Part shown: one piece after another, positions 1 through 21,603 of the stretch
Layout of the letters: the number at the start of each line of letters is the position of its first letter
Numbering within the stretch: the first letter of the stretch is position 1
Virus record (IMG/VR): IMGVR_UViG_3300048996_000027
Location: 1-25,149 of that record
Length of the DNA stretch: 25,149 nucleotides
Direction: 5' to 3' (one strand)
Source of the DNA: a virus
Translations under genes and position numbers: made by a program
The notes under the pieces: model-generated
Seen by the model: only the letters and a program-made list of their open reading frames with translations
Databases searched by the model: none
Told to the model about the DNA's origin: nothing

Positions 1-1188
1 ATGAACCTTGCAGTTGCGAATAAGCTGAATACCTTGGGAGCTTACAGGTCCCCAAAGCAGGTCATGGATGTTACATTCGGTAAAGAAACACTGCTGGCCG
101 AAACCCTCGATATAATTGAGCGCGTTGATGTTGTAGCGGCCGGTACTCGAGAATATCTCGCAGCCATCAAACCATATGGCGTGCTGAGTGGCGACGCTCT
201 CGGTTGCGATGCTGCCGAAGTTCGCCATGTCGATACGGCAGCCCCGGAAGGTAAGGCCGGTGCGCTTAGGCCTGATCGCGCCGCCAGTCGCGAACGAAGC
301 ATGTGCGATTGTCGCCGTAATCCCCGGTGCGGGGTGTACGACCATGCGGCCCTTGTCGAGACCGTCGTAAGGGAAGTTCTCAACCGGCGTTCCCGGCGCA
401 TTGACAGCTACGTCATACGCACTTGACGTCTCGGTCAGCACGATCTCGCCGTTTACGACGCTGTTGGTCCGCATGTAGCCCAGCGCGGCGGTGAGGGTCT
501 TGTAGTTCGGAAAGGCGTCGGCGATCACGCGCGAAGGCGTGACATAGGTGACGACGGGCCGGAGAACCGCCTGGCGGCCATACCAATGCGGGCCGATAAC
601 GGTCTTCTCCGCAGGGGCGTCCGTGGGGATAATCTCCCAATACATGTTCGCTGGGCCATTTGCGGTATAGACCGTAGGGTCCAGCTTGACCCAGTAGCCC
701 CACGCTCCAACCACGGTCACACCGTCGTAGGCGCTGGTCCAGGTCTGGAAGGTGAGCGGCACGTTCGCGTAAACGTTACCCTCGAAGTAGCAGTTGACGG
801 TGACCGAAGCTGCGCCGCCCGAGCCGTCCGCCTTGGAAGCCCAGCCATGGACCCCGACAATCATCCCGGTCGGATCATCCGCCCCGATGAAGCCGCCATC
901 GGGGTTGAGGCGCTTGAGCGTAGCCTTGCCAGTGACGACAGTAGGGGGAGACCCGGAATAGCCAGATCCTGCGGTGCCGTTATAGGCGGGTCCAGTAGCT
1001 ACGAAGGGCGCTGTTGGCGTTGGCGTGGGGGTGCCGCCCTGGACGATAAACGGCGCGCCTCGGTCGCTGAATACGATCGGCATGCCATAGCCGCTCGCGG
1101 CGATCGTCATCACCGATGCACCGCTCGTCACTTGCCTGACCGGTATTCCGCGGCCATTGGCGGCGATGACGACGGGGATGCCGGCCAT
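1..1188 (-). CDS. tailspike / receptor-binding beta-helix protein (partial, C-terminus beyond window)
   Basis: The frame is open from an ATG at 1188 to the left edge (396 codons), so the C-terminus lies outside the window. Its start overlaps the stop of the tail-fibre gene as TGATG. The N-terminus (MAGIPVVIAANG..., residues 1-60) is a short Gly/Ala/Val-rich segment followed by a TPTPTPTAP linker, as in phage adhesin N-termini. Residues 85-260 look like a beta-sandwich. From about residue 310 there are repeated short strands with turn residues (GLTFRGCRID, AIWFDGCEIF, CFFTECNIHD, IQLIRNCKVH), the rung pattern of a right-handed parallel beta-helix. Family knowledge: such proteins bind or degrade surface glycan during adsorption. 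No catalytic residues can be assigned. Tailspike is an inference from fold pattern and position as the most distal virion gene. Confidence 0.7.
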   Translation of the reverse strand, partial: MAGIPVVIAANGRGIPVRQVTSGASVMTIAASGYGMPIVFSDRGAPFIVQGGTPTPTPTAPFVATGPAYNGTAGSGYSGSPPTVVTGKATLKRLNPDGGFIGADDPTGMIVGVHGWASKADGSGGAASVTVNCYFEGNVYANVPLTFQTWTSAYDGVTVVGAWGYWVKLDPTVYTANGPANMYWEIIPTDAPAEKTVIGPHWYGRQAVLRPVVTYVTPSRVIADAFPNYKTLTAALGYMRTNSVVNGEIVLTETSSAYDVAVNAPGTPVENFPYDGLDKGRMVVHPAPGITATIAHASFATGGAIRPKRTGLTFRGCRIDMANFGSIATESVATQHAIWFDGCEIFSSTGRYNINALNYIEGFGQQCFFTECNIHDLLWGPVSSQGIQLIRNCKVH

Positions 1189-2051
1189 CAGATTGCCTCA
1201 AGCGCGGCAAGGCGGGCATGAATGGAGGCGCCCAAGAACATCGACAGTTCGTCGGGCCGGATGCCGAAGCGACCGTCAGGTATTTCCTCGCCCTCGTCGT
1301 AGCAAAGGAAGGCGTACTTGGAGCTGTTGGGGCCGCCGTTCTCGATGGGATCGATCAGACCTTCGCCGGCCATCACGGCCCAGACGCGTTGGGCGCGCGG
1401 CCCAAAGTGGAAGCGCGCCGCCGAGCCTTTCTCGGCTATGGAATCATTCCACTGGTAGAAGCCGAGTTCGTCGAAAATCCGCTTGGCGGCCCTGTGCTCG
1501 GCCGCATTCATGGCGCCGCGCCAGGTCTTGTCCCGCTCGTCCGACGTGTTGATCGCGCCCGTCACCGCATAGACGGTGTTCCAGCGATTTGAAGGGAGCC
1601 CGCAGCCAAACACGGCGTCGAGTTCGGGGCAGATGTTTCCAGAGAAGGCCATGGTGCCGCTTGAGAATCGGATGAAGGCGTACTGAGTGACGCCATCGTT
1701 CGTCGTGGCCTGAAGGTATACGGAGCCGGGGTTCCCCAGCGCATCCCGCAGCACGACGGCACCGGCAGTCAGGAAATTGGGGCTGGTAAACGCCGTGCCG
1801 ACGAGGCCGTTCAATTGCCCGAATGCGACTGCATCGTTTGCCGCTGTCGCATTGCCGAGGCCGGTAATTTTGAAGTTACCGAGCGAAAGGTCGGCGCGCA
1901 TCCCGCCCAGGCCATCGCGACTGAGCGAACCCGACAGTGCGTCCGCCACGTCGTTGAATGGCGGGTTGTGCTGGCCGGGGATGATCGTATCGCCGGTGTT
2001 TACGATTGTGCCGTTAGGCAGAGAATACGCACCGTTGAGATCGCGTGGCAT
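1188..2051 (-). CDS. tail fibre protein with C-terminal S74 self-cleaving chaperone domain
   Basis: The product is 287 aa. The N-terminus (MPRDLNGAYSLPNGT..., residues 1-85) matches the short fibre start common in phage side fibres, including the ITGLGNATAANDAV segment that links to the shaft. A short beta-rich region follows (90-165). From about 155 (GLPSNRWNTVYA) to the end lies an intramolecular chaperone of the S74 / endosialidase type. The self-cleavage site is Ser170-Asp171 and the partner Lys175 (SDERDK) gives the expected Ser/Lys dyad at +5. In this family the chaperone drives trimer folding and is then released. The ATG at 2051 has GGAG at 2057-2060, just after a hairpin and a 19-bp element shared with the leader of the gene starting at 7480. 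Its stop overlaps the tailspike start. Confidence 0.85.
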   Translation of the reverse strand: MPRDLNGAYSLPNGTIVNTGDTIIPGQHNPPFNDVADALSGSLSRDGLGGMRADLSLGNFKITGLGNATAANDAVAFGQLNGLVGTAFTSPNFLTAGAVVLRDALGNPGSVYLQATTNDGVTQYAFIRFSSGTMAFSGNICPELDAVFGCGLPSNRWNTVYAVTGAINTSDERDKTWRGAMNAAEHRAAKRIFDELGFYQWNDSIAEKGSAARFHFGPRAQRVWAVMAGEGLIDPIENGGPNSSKYAFLCYDEGEEIPDGRFGIRPDELSMFLGASIHARLAALEAI

Positions 2052-2101
2052 CAGAACTCCGCATCCATGCTGGTGGATGCAGGTGAAGTGGAGTCCAGCC
2101 C
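2052..2101 (-). promoter_or_regulatory. candidate late promoter/leader: 19-bp element plus hairpin
   Basis: Read on the minus strand, the element GGGCTGGACTCCACTTCAC (2101 to 2083) is followed after 2 nt by a hairpin (GCATCC 2080-2075, 8-nt loop, GGATGC 2066-2061), then GGAG and the ATG at 2051. The same 19 bp occurs at 7528-7510, again followed by a different hairpin and a start codon. The element is seen directly. Its role as a phage promoter with a structured 5' leader is inference, and it does not resemble a sigma70 promoter. Confidence 0.5.
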
Positions 2102-2282
2102 TGCGTGATGCCCTGTTCTAGCACGGTCGGAGGCTGGATAAAAGGGTGGACTAGCGCCTATCGTGCCAATGCTGTAGCATTGCTAAATGCTGAGCATCGG
2201 GTGGATCATCTTCTGGAAGTCGCTCATCGTGGCGGTTTGGATTGCACTGAAAGACGCCAGTGATGACGGCAAGTTCGCCGCA
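2102..2282. other. intergenic gap with interlocking inverted repeats
   Basis: This stretch between the tail-fibre leader and the stop of the large ejection gene has no convincing minus-strand gene. It is locally AT-rich and holds alternating copies of AATGCT and its complement AGCAT(T) at 2168-2173, 2176-2181, 2186-2191 and 2193-2197. These can form several competing small hairpins. No clear T-tract follows on either strand, so a terminator is not established. A plus-strand frame beginning at 2187 encodes a hydrophobic start but has no ribosome binding site. Confidence 0.4.
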
Positions 2283-5213
2283 CTACTCGCCTGCTTTCAG
2301 CGCGAGTGGAACCGCCGCACTGCCGAGCAACCCAGAATGCTGCCCTATTTTCCGTCCGAGGGACTTGACGGCATCGGGCCTGCCGGTGAGCGCCTTGACG
2401 ATCAGGTCTTGCCCCTTACGGGTTCCACCGATAGCCAGTAGAGCGCCGGTTACGGCCCCCGTGAGCGCGCCCTGCTGCGTATCCCCGGCAACATAGCCCA
2501 CACCCGCGCCAGTCCCGCCCAATGCGCCAGGAACGACAAGCATCTGCGCAACGCGGCGGCCGGTCCCACTGTCGGGGATTTTCGACGGCAGCACCTCCTG
2601 CCCGGCATCAGCCAGATCAGCGAAGGGGCGCTCGCCGCGGAACTTCTTGGCGGTAGCATAGGCAGCGGTGTTGAGCTGGGCAGGCGAGAAGGTTTGTAAT
2701 TCGCCTGTGCTTGCCCCGTTCTTTGCCGCACCAGATGCAGCCGCAAGCGTCTTGGCGAGGCGGTTAGCCTTATCCGCATCAGCGAGCGCCTTCACTACTG
2801 AACTGCCGCCACCCCGCTGCATTTGCCCCTTGAGGGCATCCATAGCACCGGTTACGGCATCGCGATATTCCTGCTCAAAGCCAGGCGCTGCGCCACCAGC
2901 ACTGGCCCTAGACGCCTTAAAGCCGCGCATTGCTTGTTGATAATCGCCACCCGTGAGCTCCGGGGGGGGGGCGCCGGCCGCAGGCCTTACACGTGCCTGC
3001 TCGCGATAATCCAGCGAGTCCAGCTGGCCGCCCATATTTTCGGAAGGGCGCACGGCATCTCCGTTGCTGTTCACATAATCAAGCGCTTCCTCTCGGTTGA
3101 GATATCGCCCCTCAGGGGAGACAAAGCCGGTGGCCCCCCCGAACTGCACGTCTGGATACTTCTCGGTGACATGGAAATGGGACGTGCCAGGATCGCCGAT
3201 ATACACCTTGCCGTCCGCCCCGATGTTGGCAGGAACCACGCCCTTTTGCGGAAGGCCCCCCACCATGTTGGGGGGCGTGGGCGTATAGTCGCCGATAATC
3301 GGACCAAGTCGATTACGGCCTAGAACATCGAACCGAGCGGCGTAATCAGCGGGCAGCTTACTCTGCAACTGCGCAACGCCTTGCATGTCAGCAAAGAATT
3401 GCGGATCGAGCGGAACGGTTACTCCCGCTGTGGCAGCGTCATAGGCCTTGGGAATTGCGCCTGTGGAGGGGTCCAGAAGTTGGTTGATGCCCTCCTCACG
3501 AATGCCCGTAACATTGGCCCCGATAGGGGCGCCAGCTTCCTGGAACGCTGCGCGATTGAAGTCCTGGAAACCCTCCAAGCGCCGCGCATTGACCAGATCA
3601 CCCACGCCCGGGAGGCTGGTCATGCCATCTTCGATAGACTTCGGCAGGCCGCCGAGCGTTTGCCCAGCCGTCATGCGGACGCCGCGATCCCTGAGGGCCT
3701 GGACAACCGGCGAGACGCTAGCCCCGCGCAGGCCAGCCCCAATCGCTCCGCCCACGCCTTGGCCTGCGCCGCTGCCAATCGCTCCCAGCGCAGCGCTGGT
3801 CAGCGGGTCTTGCCCTGTGTTACCACCATAGACGCCGGAATAGATAGCATCGGTAGCCAGATTGCGACCCGCTTGCGCCATCTTGCCGCCGCGCATCAAT
3901 GCAGGCGCGACGCGACCAAAAGTCTCCTTACCCAATTTGCCGAGCATAGCGGTTCCGCCGATGCTTCCGCCAATCTGGCCAAGCGCCATGGGGAGCGCGT
4001 ATTCATCGCCCATTGCCGCCATCTTATCAGGCGCAAGGGCTGATACACCGCCGAAGCCGCCGGTATCGAGAGCCCCCAGCAAAGCCGCGACCTCCGGGTT
4101 GCTCACCAAATTATTGCGCTGCTGCTCATTCGACGACAGCGGCCGAGAGGTACTAGGAATGGACGTATTGATCGTGCCGCCCTGCTGACCTTTGGCGCGC
4201 GCGCGCTCCGCATATGAGCGATACTCGTCAGCCTTGGCAGCGTCTGCAGGATAGCCGTACTTTTGATCCAGTCCGATGCGGAAACGAACATAGTCATTAG
4301 GATCGAGGTTGCGGGCATTCTGCGCCATATAGGCGTCGTATTCCGCCTGCATTGGCTTCGGGGTAGCAACAGCTCCGGTCGTTGCCATGTTCCCTGCGGC
4401 CTGCATTGGATCGCCGTGGGACAGATAGGTGGCGCTCATAGCGTTCTGCGCGGGCTGAGCGGGCATGGGCGTTACAACGCCGTTGGCATCGGGAATGCCC
4501 CCAAGGATCGCGACTGATCGCGACCGGGCATCATTTGCGATTGCGGACAGCCGGTTGATTTTGTCGGCAATTACGTCATCACGATCCCCAGCCTGAGGCA
4601 AGTAAGGCCCGACAGACGCTTCCGATTCCGTCGCGGTATTGAGCTGACCTCCGGTGAAGCCGAGCGCTGTCCCGACGATACCCCGCGCAGCGTTAGCTGC
4701 GGAATCGAATTGCTTGTTGGCCTCGGTGGGAAAGTAATCCTGAACGCCATAGACGCCTTTGGTCGCACCAGGCCCTGCCGCATACTTTGCACGCAGATCC
4801 GCAACGAGGCGGTCAAGGGATGCACCGCTCTGATAGCCCTGGATGGCATCGGCACGCTCTTTAGCGGTCACTGTCGGCTTGGTCGCGGCCTGTAACGTCC
4901 TGGGGTCAGCAGGTCCGCCCGGGATGGGCTCAAGACTTTTCCCATCAGCAGCAAGCCGATACCCGGCAGGAGGCTTGTTTGCCTGCTGAGCCGCGAGCGC
5001 CGCCTGCTGCTGAGCGAGGCGAAGCCGCTCCATCTCCATCTGAAGGCCGGCGTCCTTGCGGCCTTCATCGCGCTGCGCTTGGGGCGACTGCGGCAAGGTA
5101 TACACGCCACCAGGAGCAGGGGACGATGGCGGCGTTTGCCCCGAGAGAACCCAAGGTTCGCCCGGCGCATTGCGCGTGTAAACATGGCCCTGATAGTTGC
5201 GCTGCTCAGCCAT
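2283..5213 (-). CDS. large internal virion (DNA ejection) protein
   Basis: The product is 976 aa and begins at an ATG overlapping the upstream stop as TGATG. Residues 40-80 are charged and Gln/Ala-rich (coiled-coil-like). Around 170-210 lies a GFTGGQLNTATE...GPYLPQAGDRDD stretch that I recognise from other podoviral ejection proteins. Gly/Ala-rich segments that could insert in membranes lie near 405-430, 455-500 and 895-940 (GTGAGVGYVAGD...). A TAGQTLGGLPKSIEDG / SLPGVGDLVNARR region sits near 510-550. Residues about 635-720 hold a small insert (GTSHFHV ... GFVSPEGRYLNREEAL) resembling a module recurrent in large phage proteins. No transglycosylase catalytic motif is clear. Size, composition and position fit the largest ejection protein. 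The gene contains a run of ten G/C pairs at 2962-2971 and a C6/G6 hairpin at 3255-3276. Confidence 0.7.
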   Translation of the reverse strand: MAEQRNYQGHVYTRNAPGEPWVLSGQTPPSSPAPGGVYTLPQSPQAQRDEGRKDAGLQMEMERLRLAQQQAALAAQQANKPPAGYRLAADGKSLEPIPGGPADPRTLQAATKPTVTAKERADAIQGYQSGASLDRLVADLRAKYAAGPGATKGVYGVQDYFPTEANKQFDSAANAARGIVGTALGFTGGQLNTATESEASVGPYLPQAGDRDDVIADKINRLSAIANDARSRSVAILGGIPDANGVVTPMPAQPAQNAMSATYLSHGDPMQAAGNMATTGAVATPKPMQAEYDAYMAQNARNLDPNDYVRFRIGLDQKYGYPADAAKADEYRSYAERARAKGQQGGTINTSIPSTSRPLSSNEQQRNNLVSNPEVAALLGALDTGGFGGVSALAPDKMAAMGDEYALPMALGQIGGSIGGTAMLGKLGKETFGRVAPALMRGGKMAQAGRNLATDAIYSGVYGGNTGQDPLTSAALGAIGSGAGQGVGGAIGAGLRGASVSPVVQALRDRGVRMTAGQTLGGLPKSIEDGMTSLPGVGDLVNARRLEGFQDFNRAAFQEAGAPIGANVTGIREEGINQLLDPSTGAIPKAYDAATAGVTVPLDPQFFADMQGVAQLQSKLPADYAARFDVLGRNRLGPIIGDYTPTPPNMVGGLPQKGVVPANIGADGKVYIGDPGTSHFHVTEKYPDVQFGGATGFVSPEGRYLNREEALDYVNSNGDAVRPSENMGGQLDSLDYREQARVRPAAGAPPPELTGGDYQQAMRGFKASRASAGGAAPGFEQEYRDAVTGAMDALKGQMQRGGGSSVVKALADADKANRLAKTLAAASGAAKNGASTGELQTFSPAQLNTAAYATAKKFRGERPFADLADAGQEVLPSKIPDSGTGRRVAQMLVVPGALGGTGAGVGYVAGDTQQGALTGAVTGALLAIGGTRKGQDLIVKALTGRPDAVKSLGRKIGQHSGLLGSAAVPLALKAGE

Positions 5214-5749
5214 CAGCGGGTTCCGTTCCTGCCAAAAAATGGGACGCGGCCATATCCCGGCAACGTCACGTGGACGTGATCGCCCTCATTGAGATAGCGC
5301 GCGCGGCTGCCGAAGTAGGCGCGCAACGCGTCCTCACTGACGCCGGCATAATCGGCCGCATCGCCGTTGAGGTGGTGGCTGTTCGACTTGCCTCCCACGA
5401 TGCGATTGCCCTCGATGGTGCGGCGGCCACTGGTCATCGTGCCAGGCGCCTTCATGGGATCGGGAAACATCCCGCCTACTTGCGGCAGATATTCAGCCGC
5501 TTGCTGGTTGTGTAGGTTTTTCGCATAGGCCGTTGCTGCGCCGGGTGTGTCAAAGATCCCCAGATGCCTGCCGGTGCGGCGATAAGTTTCAATGGCCTCG
5601 CGTTCAGACATAATCCGGCCATCGTCCGAGACAGTCGGAATCAGTACTTCGCCCTGATTCGTCCCGATGCTGATTGAGCGAACGGTTGAAATGCTGCCGT
5701 CACGGTTGCGAACGATAGGGCGGCTGTGAAGATCGATGTTACCCTGCAT
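5213..5749 (-). CDS. virion-associated protein with M15-type peptidase domain
   Basis: I take the ATG at 5749, one base after the upstream stop (TAA-G-ATG), not the longer frame to 5890 whose first 47 residues are Arg/Ser-rich and only shadow the upstream gene. The product is 178 aa. Residues 1-87 form a small module ([17 protein letters not shown] ... [13 protein letters not shown]...A..YA..LH) often seen inside phage internal proteins. Residues 105-165 fit peptidase M15 of the D-Ala-D-Ala carboxypeptidase / endolysin type: SxHxxGxAxD at 124-133 gives zinc ligands His126 and Asp133, and DHVH at 157-160 gives the third His. In this family the enzyme cleaves peptide bonds of peptidoglycan. Inference: it opens the wall during DNA ejection. 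It lies between two ejection genes, not in a holin cassette. Confidence 0.75.
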
Positions 5750-5750
5750 C

Positions 5751-6485
5751 TTAAGGCCCTGGATCGAGGGGGTTGCCTGAGGGGCGAAAGTTACCCGCCG
5801 CGGGCTGCGACGGACCTCCCGCGTCGAAGTCGAAGTCAGGCGGTAAAGTCGCCGGTGGCGGCTGTGCGCCGCCCTGCTGACCCCCGCCAATGATCCCCGG
5901 AATCATAGACCGCGGCCCACTGATGAACCGGTCGCCCCCCAGCGACATATTGACCATCGGGTCACCAAGGTTGCGCAGGTAGTTGTTCGCCGCCTCGGGA
6001 CCAAGCGTTTGGGCAATGAAGTTGTAGTCGTTGATCGTATCATTGTTCGCCGGCTTCGGATTCGCCCGCTCCCACTGCATTTTGGCAAGGCCGCGGGTAT
6101 TCTCGTCCAGATACGGATCAACAAGCGCCTGCGCCGCGACATCACCGCCGCCCTTGCCAAGCAACGCCTGCGCCACCGCATTCGAGCGCGACGCTGCGGC
6201 ATCGGATTGCTTGTCGAGCTGCCGCGCATCGATCGCACCGAGCACATTGTCGGCCACGCGGCCAAGCCCCTGCCAGACGCTCGAAACCGGCGAATAGTCG
6301 GACTTCATCAGCGATTGCGCGATTGCGCGCCGGTTCGCCAGTTCATCCGGCGTCAAACGCTGTCCGCCCTCAGCCCAGGTGAAGGCATCAGGCGGCGCAA
6401 TGTTCTGCACGGGCGCAACCGTAGGATCGGCTGCAACCGACATCTGGTTGCCGTAGAACTGCGGTTTGGGTCCGAGCCACGCCAT
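5751..6485 (-). CDS. internal virion / ejection protein (hypothetical)
   Basis: The product is 244 aa, starting at an ATG that overlaps the stop of the upstream S74-domain gene. Residues 40-85 form an amphipathic region ([36 protein letters not shown]) I recognise from small ejection proteins of podoviruses. The middle is Ala/Gln-rich and helical. Residues 195-244 are Gly/Pro-rich and probably disordered. There is no signal peptide or catalytic motif. Placement between two other ejection proteins suggests it is packaged inside the head and delivered with the DNA. This is inference from context and composition. Confidence 0.6.
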
Positions 6486-7480
6486 CAGTGCACCGCCGTC
6501 GAATAGTCGACCATGAGATATCCGCTGGCATCGTCGATCATCACCGCTTCTGGCCTGATCTGCGCCACTTCCTGCGCCATGACGCCGATCTGCATTGGGC
6601 CGCCAGCCTTATAGCGGTAGGCATAGACTGGCAGGCCGTTATCGAGCGTGCCGACGCGGGTAATATCGGTCTTGAGACGGATATCGGAGAACATTCCGGC
6701 CTTAATTCCGGCGCTGCCCAGCGAGCCAGCAAGGCCGAACAAGCCACCCAGCGCCCCGCCGGCATTCGCCGCCTCCGTCTGGTAGTTCTGGCTTACGAGC
6801 CCGGTATAATCCACGCCGCCGACTTGAGCCTGCGGTGTGGGCGAAGACACAGCGCCGGGGTTGGACACCTGCGACCCGGAAAGCAGCGCGGTAATCTCAT
6901 TAAGTGGCTGATTCCGCGTCGCCAGCGCCTCGCCGAACGCCTGCCCGCGGCTTGTCAGTGCAAGCTGGTTGTTCTGATCATTGTTCGCCTGCGACAGGCG
7001 CGTCATCTCGCTGTCCCAAGCCTGAGTGCCAGGGCGCAGGCCCGAATTGATCAACTGCGTGCGTAGTGCATCCTGTGCCTGCTGCTGCTGCGGTGCAATG
7101 CGCTGTTGCGCGAGGTCATAGGCCCAATTCGCAGCGTCCTGGTTATCGAACTGGAACGGGGTGTTGAGGTACTGCCCGAGCTTCGCGGACTGATCCTGCG
7201 CAATGCCGGCGATATTGGTCTGAGCCTGCGTCGTCTTGTCAAAGATCGCCTGCTGCTCGGGATTGTACGTCGTGGTCTGGGTGAACTGGGGGATCTCGCG
7301 ATATCGGCCGGTGCTGTCCGTGAAACCGGTCGTTCCGTTTTGGCTGTAGCCGACGCTGCCCCACGGGTTATTTTGGTCCACCATGTTGGTGAGTTGCTGA
7401 GTCAAGGCCGTGTCGGTATTTAAACCGCTCTGGGCCTGGGCCGTCTGCATCGGATCTGGTGGCTTGGGGGTTGAGACCAC
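6485..7480 (-). CDS. internal virion protein with short C-terminal S74-like domain
   Basis: The product is 331 aa, initiated at GTG (7480) with AAGGAAG upstream, and this SD lies within a hairpin arm. Residues 1-240 are Gln/Asn/Thr-rich and helical (for example QQRIAPQQQQAQDAL and a NQPLNEITALLSGSQV segment) and resemble podoviral internal proteins, not a fibre shaft. A glycine-rich hydrophobic stretch spans 240-262. Residues 263-331 carry an S74-like domain with SDIRLK, giving Ser265, Asp266 and Lys270 in the self-cleavage arrangement, plus the conserved GVMAQEV motif. The domain stops after about 67 residues and lacks the long C-terminal helices of classical chaperone domains. It is preceded by the same 19-bp element as the tail-fibre gene. 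Confidence 0.7.
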   Translation of the reverse strand: MVSTPKPPDPMQTAQAQSGLNTDTALTQQLTNMVDQNNPWGSVGYSQNGTTGFTDSTGRYREIPQFTQTTTYNPEQQAIFDKTTQAQTNIAGIAQDQSAKLGQYLNTPFQFDNQDAANWAYDLAQQRIAPQQQQAQDALRTQLINSGLRPGTQAWDSEMTRLSQANNDQNNQLALTSRGQAFGEALATRNQPLNEITALLSGSQVSNPGAVSSPTPQAQVGGVDYTGLVSQNYQTEAANAGGALGGLFGLAGSLGSAGIKAGMFSDIRLKTDITRVGTLDNGLPVYAYRYKAGGPMQIGVMAQEVAQIRPEAVMIDDASGYLMVDYSTAVH

Positions 7481-7528
7481 TTTTCAACGCTTCCTTGTGT
7501 GGAAGCGCAGTGAAGTGGAGTCCAGCCC
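7481..7528 (-). promoter_or_regulatory. second copy of the 19-bp element plus hairpin; SD in stem
   Basis: The minus strand holds GGGCTGGACTCCACTTCAC (7528-7510), 2 nt, then a hairpin CGCTTCC (7507-7501), loop ACACAA, GGAAGCG (7494-7488), then the GTG at 7480. The only Shine-Dalgarno-like sequence (AAGGAAG) is in the loop and 3' arm, so folding would mask it. The 19 bases are identical to those at 2101-2083, and the geometry (2 nt, then hairpin, then start) is conserved although the hairpin sequences differ. Promoter function is inferred. Confidence 0.5.
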
Positions 7529-7545
7529 GCGCGAGATGAGGAACA

Positions 7546-7567
7546 ATAGCCCGAAGGCGCTGCTAAT
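7546..7567 (-). terminator. weak hairpin after the GNAT-like gene
   Basis: Just after the stop at 7568, the minus strand reads AGCGCCTTCGGGCT, which can fold as a short stem closed by a stable C(UUCG)G tetraloop and is followed by ATTGTT. It sits directly before the 19-bp element, as a terminator upstream of a new promoter would. The stem is short and the T-tract is poor, so this is tentative. Confidence 0.25.
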
Positions 7568-7945
7568 TCAATAGCGGTACTCAGACCGAAGAATACCCAG
7601 CACAATCCCGTCATGCCCGGCTCCGAAGTGTGACCGCATCCGCCCCTCCACCTGTCCGCCAAGCCGCCGCCCTATCGCCGCGACATCCTCGCAGCGCGTC
7701 ACCGCGGTAATCCGCTCGCAACCGAGCTGATCGAACACATAGCTGCCGATCGCGCGCAGCAGGCCCTTAGTCCAGCCCTTGCCGGCAACCGTGGCATGCA
7801 GATCGGCGCCTTCGAAGTGGTTCAGCAACACGCCGGCCACGATCTCTCCATCGCGCTCGATGCCGATGGCGGCATATGGCGGGCACAGGCCGAAGCCCAA
7901 TTGCTCAGACACAAACCGAGCCACGCGTTCATCGGCGACGATCAC
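7568..7945 (-). CDS. GNAT-like acetyltransferase-fold protein in the virion cluster
   Basis: The product is 125 aa, initiated at GTG and overlapping the upstream stop as GTGA. The pattern fits a GNAT fold: strands around AAIGIERDGEIVAGVLLNHF (25-44), an LHATVAGKGWTKGLLRAI segment (49-66) where the acetyl-CoA loop normally lies, and a C-terminal ITAVTR...AIGRRLGGQVEGRMRSHF followed by a GIVLGIL strand. The canonical Q/RxxGxG/A loop is not clear, so activity is uncertain. Similar small GNAT-like genes are common between tail and ejection genes of podoviruses. A structural role or modification of a virion or host protein are both possible. Confidence 0.6.
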   Translation of the reverse strand: MIVADERVARFVSEQLGFGLCPPYAAIGIERDGEIVAGVLLNHFEGADLHATVAGKGWTKGLLRAIGSYVFDQLGCERITAVTRCEDVAAIGRRLGGQVEGRMRSHFGAGHDGIVLGILRSEYRY

Positions 7946-10209: not shown

Positions 10210-10959
10210 TTACTCGGCCTTCAGCGCGGACAGCATCGATTCCAGGGTGGCCCGCGAGGGATTGCCTTGCGGCCGCTTCCCGTCGTTCAGCAGCGCGATT
10301 TCGTCTTTGAGGTCGGCGTCGCTGCGATCGGCGAATTGATCTGCCGCATCGTCGGCATCTTCGTCGTCCTCGGCCACTTCAGTAACGTCGGGCGCACCGC
10401 CCATCGCGGCAATCTGCCGCTTGAGTTCGTTGATCTCGCGCTGTGCCTGGGAGCCGTCGTTCCGCGCATCCATGAAACGCTTTGCCATGGGCTTGATGTC
10501 GTTGCCGACCTGGCCAAGCCGTTTCATGGCAGGGCCTTCGAGATGGCATAGCGCTTCGATCGAATTGATGTCGAGCGCGCGGCACATGGAGAGCTGCGCT
10601 TGGCTGATGCCGTAGGGCAGAAGCTCTTCCAGCGGCGTGCCCTCAGCTTCCTGCGCGGCACCGGCAACGAATGCCTGATACTGATCCTTGAACTTCTCGG
10701 CCCAGGTCACGATCCGACCGTTATCGTCCATCTCCGCCTGCTCATCGACCCCCATCATGGGCCGATACTGCGGATTGCCCGCAAAGCGGATTTCGACCAT
10801 CGCTTTCAGTTCGTAGACGGGCTTTCCGGCAAGGCGCGATTGCACCTCGTTGAATACGTTCTGGTAGCTGAAAAACGGCGTCATGGTGTGGCGCCGGCTG
10901 TCACCGATATCGTAACGGTTGAGCTGGTCGCGCGGGATCTCGGAGAACTGAAGCGACAT
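10210..10959 (-). CDS. structural-region protein with C-terminal HeH/LEM-like motif (hypothetical)
   Basis: The product is 249 aa. Residues 1-110 contain MVEIRFAGNPQYRPMM and ETWAEKFKDQYQAF-like segments that I recognise only as conserved in related phages. Residues about 112-160 (LPYGISQAQLSMCRALDINSIEALCHLE...RLGQ) look like a helix-hairpin-helix repeat. A coiled coil and acidic linker (EVAEDDEDADDAADQ) follow, and the last 35 residues (DLKDEIALLNDGKRPQGNPSRATLESML) resemble the HeH/LEM fold found in phage head-completion proteins. The ATG at 10959 has AGAGG 7 nt upstream. Placement between capsid and adaptor suggests a head-completion or minor head role, which is inference. Confidence 0.55.
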   Translation of the reverse strand: MSLQFSEIPRDQLNRYDIGDSRRHTMTPFFSYQNVFNEVQSRLAGKPVYELKAMVEIRFAGNPQYRPMMGVDEQAEMDDNGRIVTWAEKFKDQYQAFVAGAAQEAEGTPLEELLPYGISQAQLSMCRALDINSIEALCHLEGPAMKRLGQVGNDIKPMAKRFMDARNDGSQAQREINELKRQIAAMGGAPDVTEVAEDDEDADDAADQFADRSDADLKDEIALLNDGKRPQGNPSRATLESMLSALKAE

Positions 10960-10978
10960 ATGGGAGCCTCTGGAAGTG

Positions 10979-11000
10979 GGGCCGGGTGTTACCCCGGCCC
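10979..11000 (-). terminator. GC-rich hairpin downstream of the capsid genes
   Basis: A perfect 8-bp inverted repeat (GGGCCGGG 10979-10986 and CCCGGCCC 10993-11000, 6-nt loop) lies six bases after the stop at 11007. There is no T-tract, so it is not a classical intrinsic terminator. It could stabilise the 3' end of capsid mRNA or partly attenuate transcription, as hairpins after phage capsid genes often do. Confidence 0.5.
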
Positions 11001-11006
11001 GGTGGA

Positions 11007-20164: not shown

Positions 20165-21603
20165 TCTTCGCCTCCATCGTCGGAGGGTTCCCCGCCCTCA
20201 GCGGGGGAACCCTTATGGTACGTAGTACCTAGGGGTGTGTTTGGAGAGGTTTCCGGTAGGTTATCGGTAGGTTTCCGGAGGTGTTTCCGGTAGGTTTCCG
20301 GAGATTTGGGGTAGGTTTCCGGAATGTTTCCGGAGCCCTCGCTATGGGTTTCCGGGGCTCCGGCGACACGATCGGGGACACCTTTTCCGATCTCCCTGAG
20401 ACCGAAAACGGGTTTGCCTTCGCCCTTCTGCACCCACAAATATCCCCGCTCGATCGCGTTGATACGGAACAGTCGGTCCATGGCTTGCTCCAACCGATCC
20501 TTGCCGATCTTCTTGCTCTCAGGCATCTTCTCGAAGACCCTGGGGGCGTAATTCTGGCCATAGTTGCTCTCCGAAACTGCGCGGCGTTGACGCAGTCGCT
20601 CGGTGAGGCAGGTGAGGAAAATCTTGTTTTCGGCAGACGCGCGGATGCTCTCATTGATCTCGCGGGCGGTGTCCTCGCCAAGATCCTCATCACGAACGAA
20701 GCCGCCTTTGAACCAGCGAAAACTGATTGTCCCGCCCGCTGCGCCATAGTTGGCTTTGGGGTTTTCTATGACGCGGCCATCGGGATCGCCATCGGTCTCC
20801 GAATGCTTCATGATCCAGCGTGAGCGGACCTTATTGTGCCATGCGACCGAGCCTAGCCAGTCGTCGCCGGCCTTGTTGGGATGGTGGACGATCATGGCGA
20901 CGCCATCGAGGCGCAGCGCCAGGCCAGTGAGCAAGTTGATGAAGGCCGCCACCATATGGATGTCGTTGAGGTCGCCGCCCATGGCATCCGTGGCGTTGTC
21001 GAAGGCGTAGAGCCTGATTTGCATCTCGATGCAGGTGTGGACCAACTGGTTCCACCTATCGGTCGGGAGAAGCTTTCCGGTGTCATCGAACGTTGCCAGT
21101 TCAGTGCCCGCTTCGCCGCATAGCGAAACGAGATGAAGCCGGTCCGTGAGATCGGTGACGGGCACGTCCAGCACCTTGCATATCGCGACCTGACGGCGCC
21201 ACAATTCCTCTGCATCGTCCTCGCAGGTGACGTAGAGCGTGTTCATCTGCTCGGTTTCCATGCCCAGAAATGGAAGCCCTAGCGCGATGCAGGTACAGAG
21301 CATTTGTTCGAACAAGCTCTTGCCGGTACCGCCCGGAGCCGTGAGCATCGTCGTGACGCCGATCGGCAGCCAGTCACCCCAGGCGAACCTACGGGCCGGG
21401 GGATCCTTGCCCTCCCATGCTGCGAAGTCGATGACAGGCAGGAAAGTCGGCGGGGGCGCGGGTTCAACCTCCACCCCAGCGCGGATCGGCTTGACGTTGT
21501 TCGCAAGCTCCTCGCGCGCGAGTTCGGCGGCACGTGCATCCCACAGCGCTTCTGCTTTCGCCGCGTCCTCCTCGATATCACCCCAATCATTCACCCGGCT
21601 CAT
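20161..21603 (-). CDS. replicative RecA-fold ATPase (RepA/AAA_25-type helicase-like)
   Basis: The product is 480 aa. Walker A is PGGTGKS (90-96), followed by the LYVTCEDD strand (123-130) with an acidic pair. Walker B is at RLYAFDN (Asp202) and the IVHHPNK motif (238-244) is the sensor loop typical of RepA-like hexameric helicases and their phage relatives. SVAWHNKVRSRWIM (253-266) fits the arginine-finger region. The last 75 residues are low-complexity (PET, RK, GN repeats) because the DNA there is a repeat array. Family knowledge: such ATPases unwind or load at origins. It is the only replication ATPase in the window, so it probably initiates phage replication. The start overlaps the upstream gene as ATGA. 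Confidence 0.85.
   Translation of the reverse strand: MSRVNDWGDIEEDAAKAEALWDARAAELAREELANNVKPIRAGVEVEPAPPPTFLPVIDFAAWEGKDPPARRFAWGDWLPIGVTTMLTAPGGTGKSLFEQMLCTCIALGLPFLGMETEQMNTLYVTCEDDAEELWRRQVAICKVLDVPVTDLTDRLHLVSLCGEAGTELATFDDTGKLLPTDRWNQLVHTCIEMQIRLYAFDNATDAMGGDLNDIHMVAAFINLLTGLALRLDGVAMIVHHPNKAGDDWLGSVAWHNKVRSRWIMKHSETDGDPDGRVIENPKANYGAAGGTISFRWFKGGFVRDEDLGEDTAREINESIRASAENKIFLTCLTERLRQRRAVSESNYGQNYAPRVFEKMPESKKIGKDRLEQAMDRLFRINAIERGYLWVQKGEGKPVFGLREIGKGVPDRVAGAPETHSEGSGNIPETYPKSPETYRKHLRKPTDNLPETSPNTPLGTTYHKGSPAEGGEPSDDGGEE
20184..20213. other. strong GC-rich stem-loop inside the 3' end of the ATPase gene
   Basis: GGGTTCCCCGC (20185-20195) pairs with GCGGGGGAACCC (20201-20212) with one bulged base, loop CCTCA, extended by an A-T pair on the outside. 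It lies within the last codons of the gene, 35 bases from the repeat array, next to a short inverted repeat GGTAC-GTA-GTACC (20217-20229). It could be an origin hairpin or an mRNA structure. No T-tract follows on the minus strand. Confidence 0.5.
20249..20355 (-). repeat. helically phased iteron-like array (CCGGAAAC), candidate origin
   Basis: On the plus strand the octamer GTTTCCGG occurs exactly seven times, starting at 20249, 20271, 20283, 20294, 20315, 20326 and 20348, with one variant (GTTATCGG) at 20260. Spacings are 11, 11, 12, 11, 21, 11 and 22, all near multiples of 11, or about one helical turn. On the coding strand the unit is read as PET, as GN and as RK, so the DNA is kept in all three frames. 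Lambda O shows that origin iterons can lie inside an initiator gene. An 11-bp minisatellite expansion is the alternative. Confidence 0.65.

Follow-up and report, generated by a model that had tools for sequence, protein, structure and literature searches.

Two genes of a phage fragment are preceded by the same 19-nt sequence, which raises the question of what this element does and whether it is tied to the proteins encoded behind it. The window, i.e. the whole 25,149 bases that make up the source record, contains both exact copies of the element, GGGCTGGACTCCACTTCAC, on the minus strand (2101-2083 and 7528-7510), which is the strand of all leader features and genes described for it below. No further match was present in the window when up to three mismatches were allowed, and the chance expectation of such a repeat was 0 in 100 dinucleotide shuffles. 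Two nucleotides after each copy is a hairpin with a 7-bp stem and a 6-nt loop, and a start codon lies 29-31 nt beyond the 19-mer. The copy at 7528-7510 precedes a gene for a virion structural or DNA-ejection-like protein with a C-terminal S74 domain (ej, 6485..7480; phrog_6121 at 3.6e-94, phrog_4287, Pfam S74), and the other precedes a gene for a tail-fibre protein with an MPRDxNG N-terminus and an S74 domain (fib, 1188..2051; phrog_7121, Pfam S74, N-terminal module alignment). Peptidase_S74 scored above the Pfam cut-off of 22 bits in both products (31.2 and 38.3 bits). The first-pass annotation of an identical 19-mer, hairpin, and start codon ahead of both S74 genes was therefore confirmed. 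The reading developed here, considered likely on the basis of comparative sequence data, is that the 19-mer forms the core of a 5' leader RNA of approximately 55 nt, transcribed from its own sigma70-like promoter, whose fold hides the ribosome-binding site and keeps translation low or conditional.

Distribution of the leader among related phages

Searching IMG/VR for the exact word was uninformative by itself, as the 19-mer or a 16-mer of it occurred at 7 unrelated loci, none of which had the hairpin. The search of relatives proposed in the first-pass annotation succeeded with diverged copies, approximately 45 of which were found in IMG/VR phages ahead of homologues of ej and fib. Upstream of ej homologues the diverged version reads GCGCG-g[C/T]TGAAC-yy-CTTCA-CGCGC, then TTTCC-loop-GGAAA, then the start codon, and the leader was also present ahead of fib homologues, which were located via alignment of the N-terminal MPRDxNG module. 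Copies were positioned directly before the ej or fib homologue starts or before genes inserted there. For example, a gene that appears by eye to be HNH endonuclease-like lies between the leader and ej in L199 (leader at L199:3941-3996) and has taken over the leader, as have other inserted genes in L164 and L207. Covariance model R1 scored the window copies, both of which belong to the set from which the model was built, at 39.2 bits before ej (7478..7535) and 49.9 bits before fib (2050..2107). Rfam yielded no match for the window (E<=5), for the flanks of both copies (E<=10), or for seven leader-bearing loci (gathering score).

Both places were readable in 29 phages, with both copies present in 16, only the ej copy in three, only the fib copy in none, and neither in ten. 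The two copies therefore co-occur (p=1.4e-5, counted by hand among related phages and uncorrected for kinship). In a set of 13 related virus records, the majority 34-45 kb long, strong covariance matches were confined to the ej and fib sites, with two in most records; L189, L161, and L144 had one, L140 had none, and one 80-kb record had four. The single or zero strong matches in L189, L161, L144, and L140 are attributed to the low scores of divergent copies. The two-site arrangement is therefore recurrent across the phage group rather than the result of one recent copy event, while gene conversion may account for the two 19-mers of the window phage being perfectly identical.

The first-pass annotation had also considered the shared S74 domain meaningful, such that the leader may have been copied along with a module. 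This link was not borne out. The domain was missing from the leader-bearing ej of L202, L188, and L161, and the leader-bearing fibres of L150, L158, L139, and L202 carried a Collar domain in its place. Because several leader-bearing ej and fib genes are without S74, the domain is incidental to the leader.

A position-free regular-expression scan for motif plus hairpin gave no excess over reversed controls (113 vs 121), so only copies before ej or fib starts, or covariance-model matches, were used. Another 43 near-identical matches to TGAACN{2,6}TTCACGCGCTTYC shared one common, unrelated sequence context and were set aside. A covariance search of 385 alphaproteobacterial genomes returned seven weak matches (25-32 bits), none in the leader's gene context; most overlapped long open frames, and they were taken as chance. 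A hairpin before every gene as a general rule was also rejected, with no clear genome-wide enrichment. Elsewhere in the window, a strong hairpin, GGGCCGGG-GTAACA-CCCGGCCC, occupies 10960-11006 (minus strand) in the gap before a 249-aa gene (10210-10959) and is outside the leader family, and short degenerate GGTAGGTTTCCGG repeats occur at 20243-20333 within the 3' end of a primase/helicase-like gene.

Paired elements and covariation in the leader

Three helices were identified in the leader. P1 is formed by the flanks of the 19-mer and is additional to the hairpins of the first-pass annotation, which correspond to P2, while P3 joins part of the 19-mer to the Shine-Dalgarno (SD) or start region. 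At ej, the P1 5' strand GCGCGG (7527..7532) pairs with CTGCGC (7505..7510), and P2 is CGCTTCC-ACACAA-GGAAGCG (7488..7507) with the SD AGGAAG in its 3' arm, followed by GTG at 7480. The ej 19-mer (7510..7528) comprises the end of the P1 5' strand and the P1 loop, and holds the P3 5' strand. At fib, the P1 strands are GCAGG (2100..2104) and CCTGC (2079..2083), and P2 is GCATCCA-CCAGCA-TGGATGC (2061..2080), followed by ATG at 2051; here the 19-mer (2083..2101), likewise an exact match, was placed by pairing analysis. The same 19-mer is put to two P3 uses in the window: GGACTCC (2090..2096) pairs at fib with GGAGTTC (2054..2060), which includes the SD GGAG, and CCACTT (7513..7518) pairs at ej with AAGTGG (7477..7482), which includes the GTG start codon.

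In 33 aligned copies, 95.3% of P1 and P2 cells held standard pairs, compared to 77.3% when shuffled and 41-57% when slid. Two-sided changes were present in eight of the nine P1 and P2 pairs, amounting to 42 such cells vs 8.2 in shuffles, a value that none of 500 shuffles reached. RNAalifold recovered P1 and P2 with no structure supplied. The register of P3 shifts among copies, and this helix was therefore tested by permuting partners, with the best helix re-chosen each time. Among 41 non-redundant copies, P1 reached z=8.05 and P3 z=7.47, neither of which was attained in 5000 permutations; since the copies are related, these values, like the Fisher value above, overstate independence. Two control pairings showed no such signal (z=-0.75 and -1.63), and both the P1 and the P3 signal held in the ej set and the fib set taken separately. 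Compensated P1 variants included GAGCG/CGCTC, GTGCG/CGCAC, GCACA/TGTGC, and GCTCG/CGAGC, and differing P3 solutions included GGACCTACT/AGTAGGTCC, TTGAAC/GTTCAA, CTGACTT/AAGTCAG, CCTTCG/CGAAGG, and GGCTGGCTC/GAGCCAGCC. In a few copies (e.g. fib_L216 and ej_L150), P3 was only 4 bp long.

On the sense strand, G-U pairs (16 cells in 33 copies) were more numerous than A-C mismatches, which identifies mRNA, rather than its complementary strand or a DNA duplex, as the structured molecule. This observation bears upon the alternative that the 19-mer is a protein-binding DNA site, for instance of a GcrA/CcrM-type regulator. Both 19-mer copies do contain GACTC, an instance of GANTC, a GcrA-like gene is encoded by some relatives, and GANTC is depleted in the window (35 vs approximately 116 expected). 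However, GANTC is lost from most diverged copies, and a duplex DNA site leaves the covariation with sense-strand G-U pairs unexplained, making this alternative very improbable. Depletion of GANTC in its own right was 3-6 fold in the window and in relatives L026, L027, and L029-L039, in line with hosts among the CcrM-bearing alphaproteobacteria. Among named phages, Rhizobium RHph_I3_18 and Microcystis Mwe-JY13 are capsid-protein relatives of the window phage. The latter (L026, PP438406) is labelled cyanobacterial. Its GANTC sites are nevertheless depleted, it carries a GcrA-like gene, and alphaproteobacterial phages are among its relatives, so that an associated alphaproteobacterium may be the actual host.

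P1 and P3 cross, and each covaries as in an H-type pseudoknot. The leader would thus adopt either a pseudoknot, with P2 in the third loop, or two alternating states. Loop lengths look permissive for simultaneous P1 and P3 in ej-type copies and tight in some fib copies. Where a long P3 adjoins P1 (e.g. L256), there seems to be little steric room for both helices at full length, and P1 and P3 may not coexist as a pseudoknot in such fib copies.

Pairing of the SD or start codon within a conserved, covarying structure is the arrangement of leaders that sequester the ribosome-binding site. Folding predictions, which were restricted to nested structures and left pseudoknots out, gave an unpaired probability at -16..+3 of 0.27 with the leader, compared to 0.46 for the same sequences shuffled and 0.54 for leaderless homologues (p=6e-14). 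The GC content of the leader set was 0.58 and that of the comparison set 0.48, and composition was preserved in the shuffled control. The lowered predicted accessibility also informs another alternative, in which the structure, like the 5' hairpin of the T7 gene 10 leader, stabilises the mRNA by protecting it from RNase and does not repress translation. A stable structure close to the predicted 5' end is consistent with such a function, but a stabiliser has no need of base pairs with the SD or start codon, P3 covaries, and the predicted accessibility of the start region is well below that in homologues. Stabilisation as the whole explanation is accordingly regarded as quite unlikely.

Promoter-like sites upstream of P1

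A sigma70-like site, TTGnnn-17-(TGn)TAnnnT, was found upstream of P1 and was absent before homologues without the leader. The distance from the end of the -10 box to P1 was 10-14 nt in 40 of 43 copies, so that the hexamers, with the 16-18 nt separation of sigma70 promoters, stand at a fixed distance from the leader. The mean promoter score before fib was z=3.1 with the leader and 0.25 without it (p=1e-6), and that before ej was z=2.0 and -0.19 (p=7e-11), scores without the leader being taken at the matched place in homologues and both p values overstating independence because the copies are related. In the window, the putative ej promoter has a -35 box TTGAAT (7566..7571), overlapping the stop codon of a GNAT gene, and a -10 box TATTGT (7543..7548) after a 17-nt spacer, with a predicted start near 7536. 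The putative fib promoter has a weak -35 box TTTATC (2137..2142) and an extended -10 box TGC-TAGAAC (2115..2120), with a predicted start near 2108. Both predicted starts fall a few bases before P1. The -35 box before ej usually falls within the final codons of the GNAT gene upstream, in which the Leu codon at the box was TTG in 17 of 19 cases with the leader vs 5 of 14 without it (p=0.002). Given this overlap with GNAT codons, conservation of the ej promoter may be partly protein-driven.

The proposal that a promoter and a structured leader precede both genes therefore stands in outline, in that a promoter-like site and a leader are present. The assignment of the 19-mer itself as the promoter does not, since the 19-mer lies inside the predicted leader RNA and the promoter-like sites, enriched with the leader, lie farther upstream. 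More specifically, the 19-mer had been likened to late promoters of T7-type phages, which would be read by a phage single-subunit RNA polymerase. T7 class III promoters with a structured leader do share a repeated element and hairpin before virion genes, and identical sequences at equal spacing before two late genes favour such a reading. However, the repeated element here is predicted to be transcribed RNA, and it diverges among relatives with compensating partners. T7-type promoters occur as many near-identical copies genome-wide, whereas most near-complete relatives have two strong copies and no further sites. In addition, neither the window nor the relatives searched for such a gene beyond it, several near-complete leader carriers among them, gave a PF00940 (RNA_pol) match that passed the cut-off; one sub-cut-off match (E 0.002) occurred in RHph_I3_18, and the T7 positive control was detected at 9.9e-110. 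The polymerase-promoter reading is scarcely credible and is already largely refuted.

The location of two hairpins at the very start of the predicted transcript is also compatible with a leader that acts mainly on transcription, either as a cis antitermination RNA or as a pause or attenuation device at the promoter-proximal 5' end. The HK022 put antitermination RNA has two stem-loops right after its promoter, an arrangement resembling that of P1 and P2 after the predicted promoter. Furthermore, distant relatives without the leader have intrinsic-terminator-like hairpins (GCCGCC..GGCGGCTTTTT) at the same place before fib. In the leader, however, P3 pairs with and covaries specifically with the ribosome-binding and start region, which antitermination does not need. 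A single gene follows each site, near the operon end, in contrast to put and its operon-wide downstream terminators, and P2 is followed by no U-tract (no T run, as in a G+C-rich intrinsic terminator, follows it in either window copy). A principal role in transcription is hence unlikely. Among the leaderless relatives, L243, L249, L253, L257-L259, L261, and L262 have the terminator-like hairpin and a T run directly before the fibre SD, before position 1501, which suggests that fibre expression is restrained at this location by a different means. As a separate observation, ATT (Ile) in place of ATG apparently starts the tail-fibre genes at L010:20693, L011:20281, L012:20775, L222:1501, and L228:1501, with an SD closely before; such rare start codons may add to low fibre expression.

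Proposed mechanism and relation to known leaders

The best reading of the sequence comparisons is that the leader is a new phage cis-regulatory RNA outside Rfam that restrains translation and is transcribed from host-type internal promoters. A short transcript would begin a few bases before P1, from the sigma70-like promoter just upstream of ej or fib. P1 and P2, the latter usually carrying the SD in or beside its 3' arm, would form first in the emerging RNA. The start region would emerge next and be hidden by P3, which would either coexist with P1 in a pseudoknot or displace it. As the ribosome-binding site would be hidden in the pseudoknot and in the alternating states alike, translation of the minor virion protein and the tail fibre would be low or conditional. 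Relief could come from the kinetics of folding during transcription, from a phage protein, or from a ligand, and in a conditional version a factor would stabilise P1 or open P3. We infer use of the promoters, translational repression, and its relief by some factor from the conserved arrangement.

The preQ1-II and SAM-II riboswitches hide the SD by crossing stems, as proposed here, and the position of P2 in the third loop recalls preQ1-II. Unlike these riboswitches, the leader has no Rfam counterpart and is found in the context of phage virion genes.

A literature search, conducted largely among openly accessible papers, returned no related phage leader closer than the T4 cases, in which the ribosome sites of e, soc, 49, and I-TevI are hidden in helices and gene 32 has a leader pseudoknot (PMC3014915). 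The autoregulatory pseudoknot of gene 32 in T4, T2, and RB69 is similarly located in a phage mRNA leader, with pseudoknot topology near the ribosome-binding site (PMC3014915, PMC535899). In T4 it lies approximately 67 nt upstream and nucleates gp32 on an A+U-rich ribosome-binding site (PMC3014915, PMC535899), whereas in the present leader it is the second stem that pairs directly with the SD or start codon, the genes encode virion components, and sequence and Rfam status differ. The T4 e, soc, 49, and I-TevI hairpins likewise lock the SD and/or start codon in an RNA helix (PMC3014915). These hairpins are on long early transcripts, the I-TevI late promoter being close to the 5' portion of its hairpin (PMC3014915). 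In contrast, the predicted promoter of the leader is upstream of the whole fold, such that its own transcript would contain the complete structure, and crossing helices that reach the start codon covary across a phage group ahead of two virion genes.

The leader thus probably limits or switches the production of two low-copy phage parts. A broader and more tentative proposal is that it represents a hitherto undescribed family of phage riboregulators. In such a family one core, pseudoknotted or bistable, would gate two low-copy virion proteins, each expressed from an internal promoter of its own, until folding kinetics or a phage factor lifted the block; RNA structure would thereby set part ratios.

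To our knowledge, the mechanism by which the copy number of minor virion proteins is set within the long late operons of tailed phages is mostly unexplained. With a small covarying cassette of promoter and leader recurring ahead of this gene pair in many phages, the question becomes accessible to simple reporter tests, and a new RNA family becomes available for probing.
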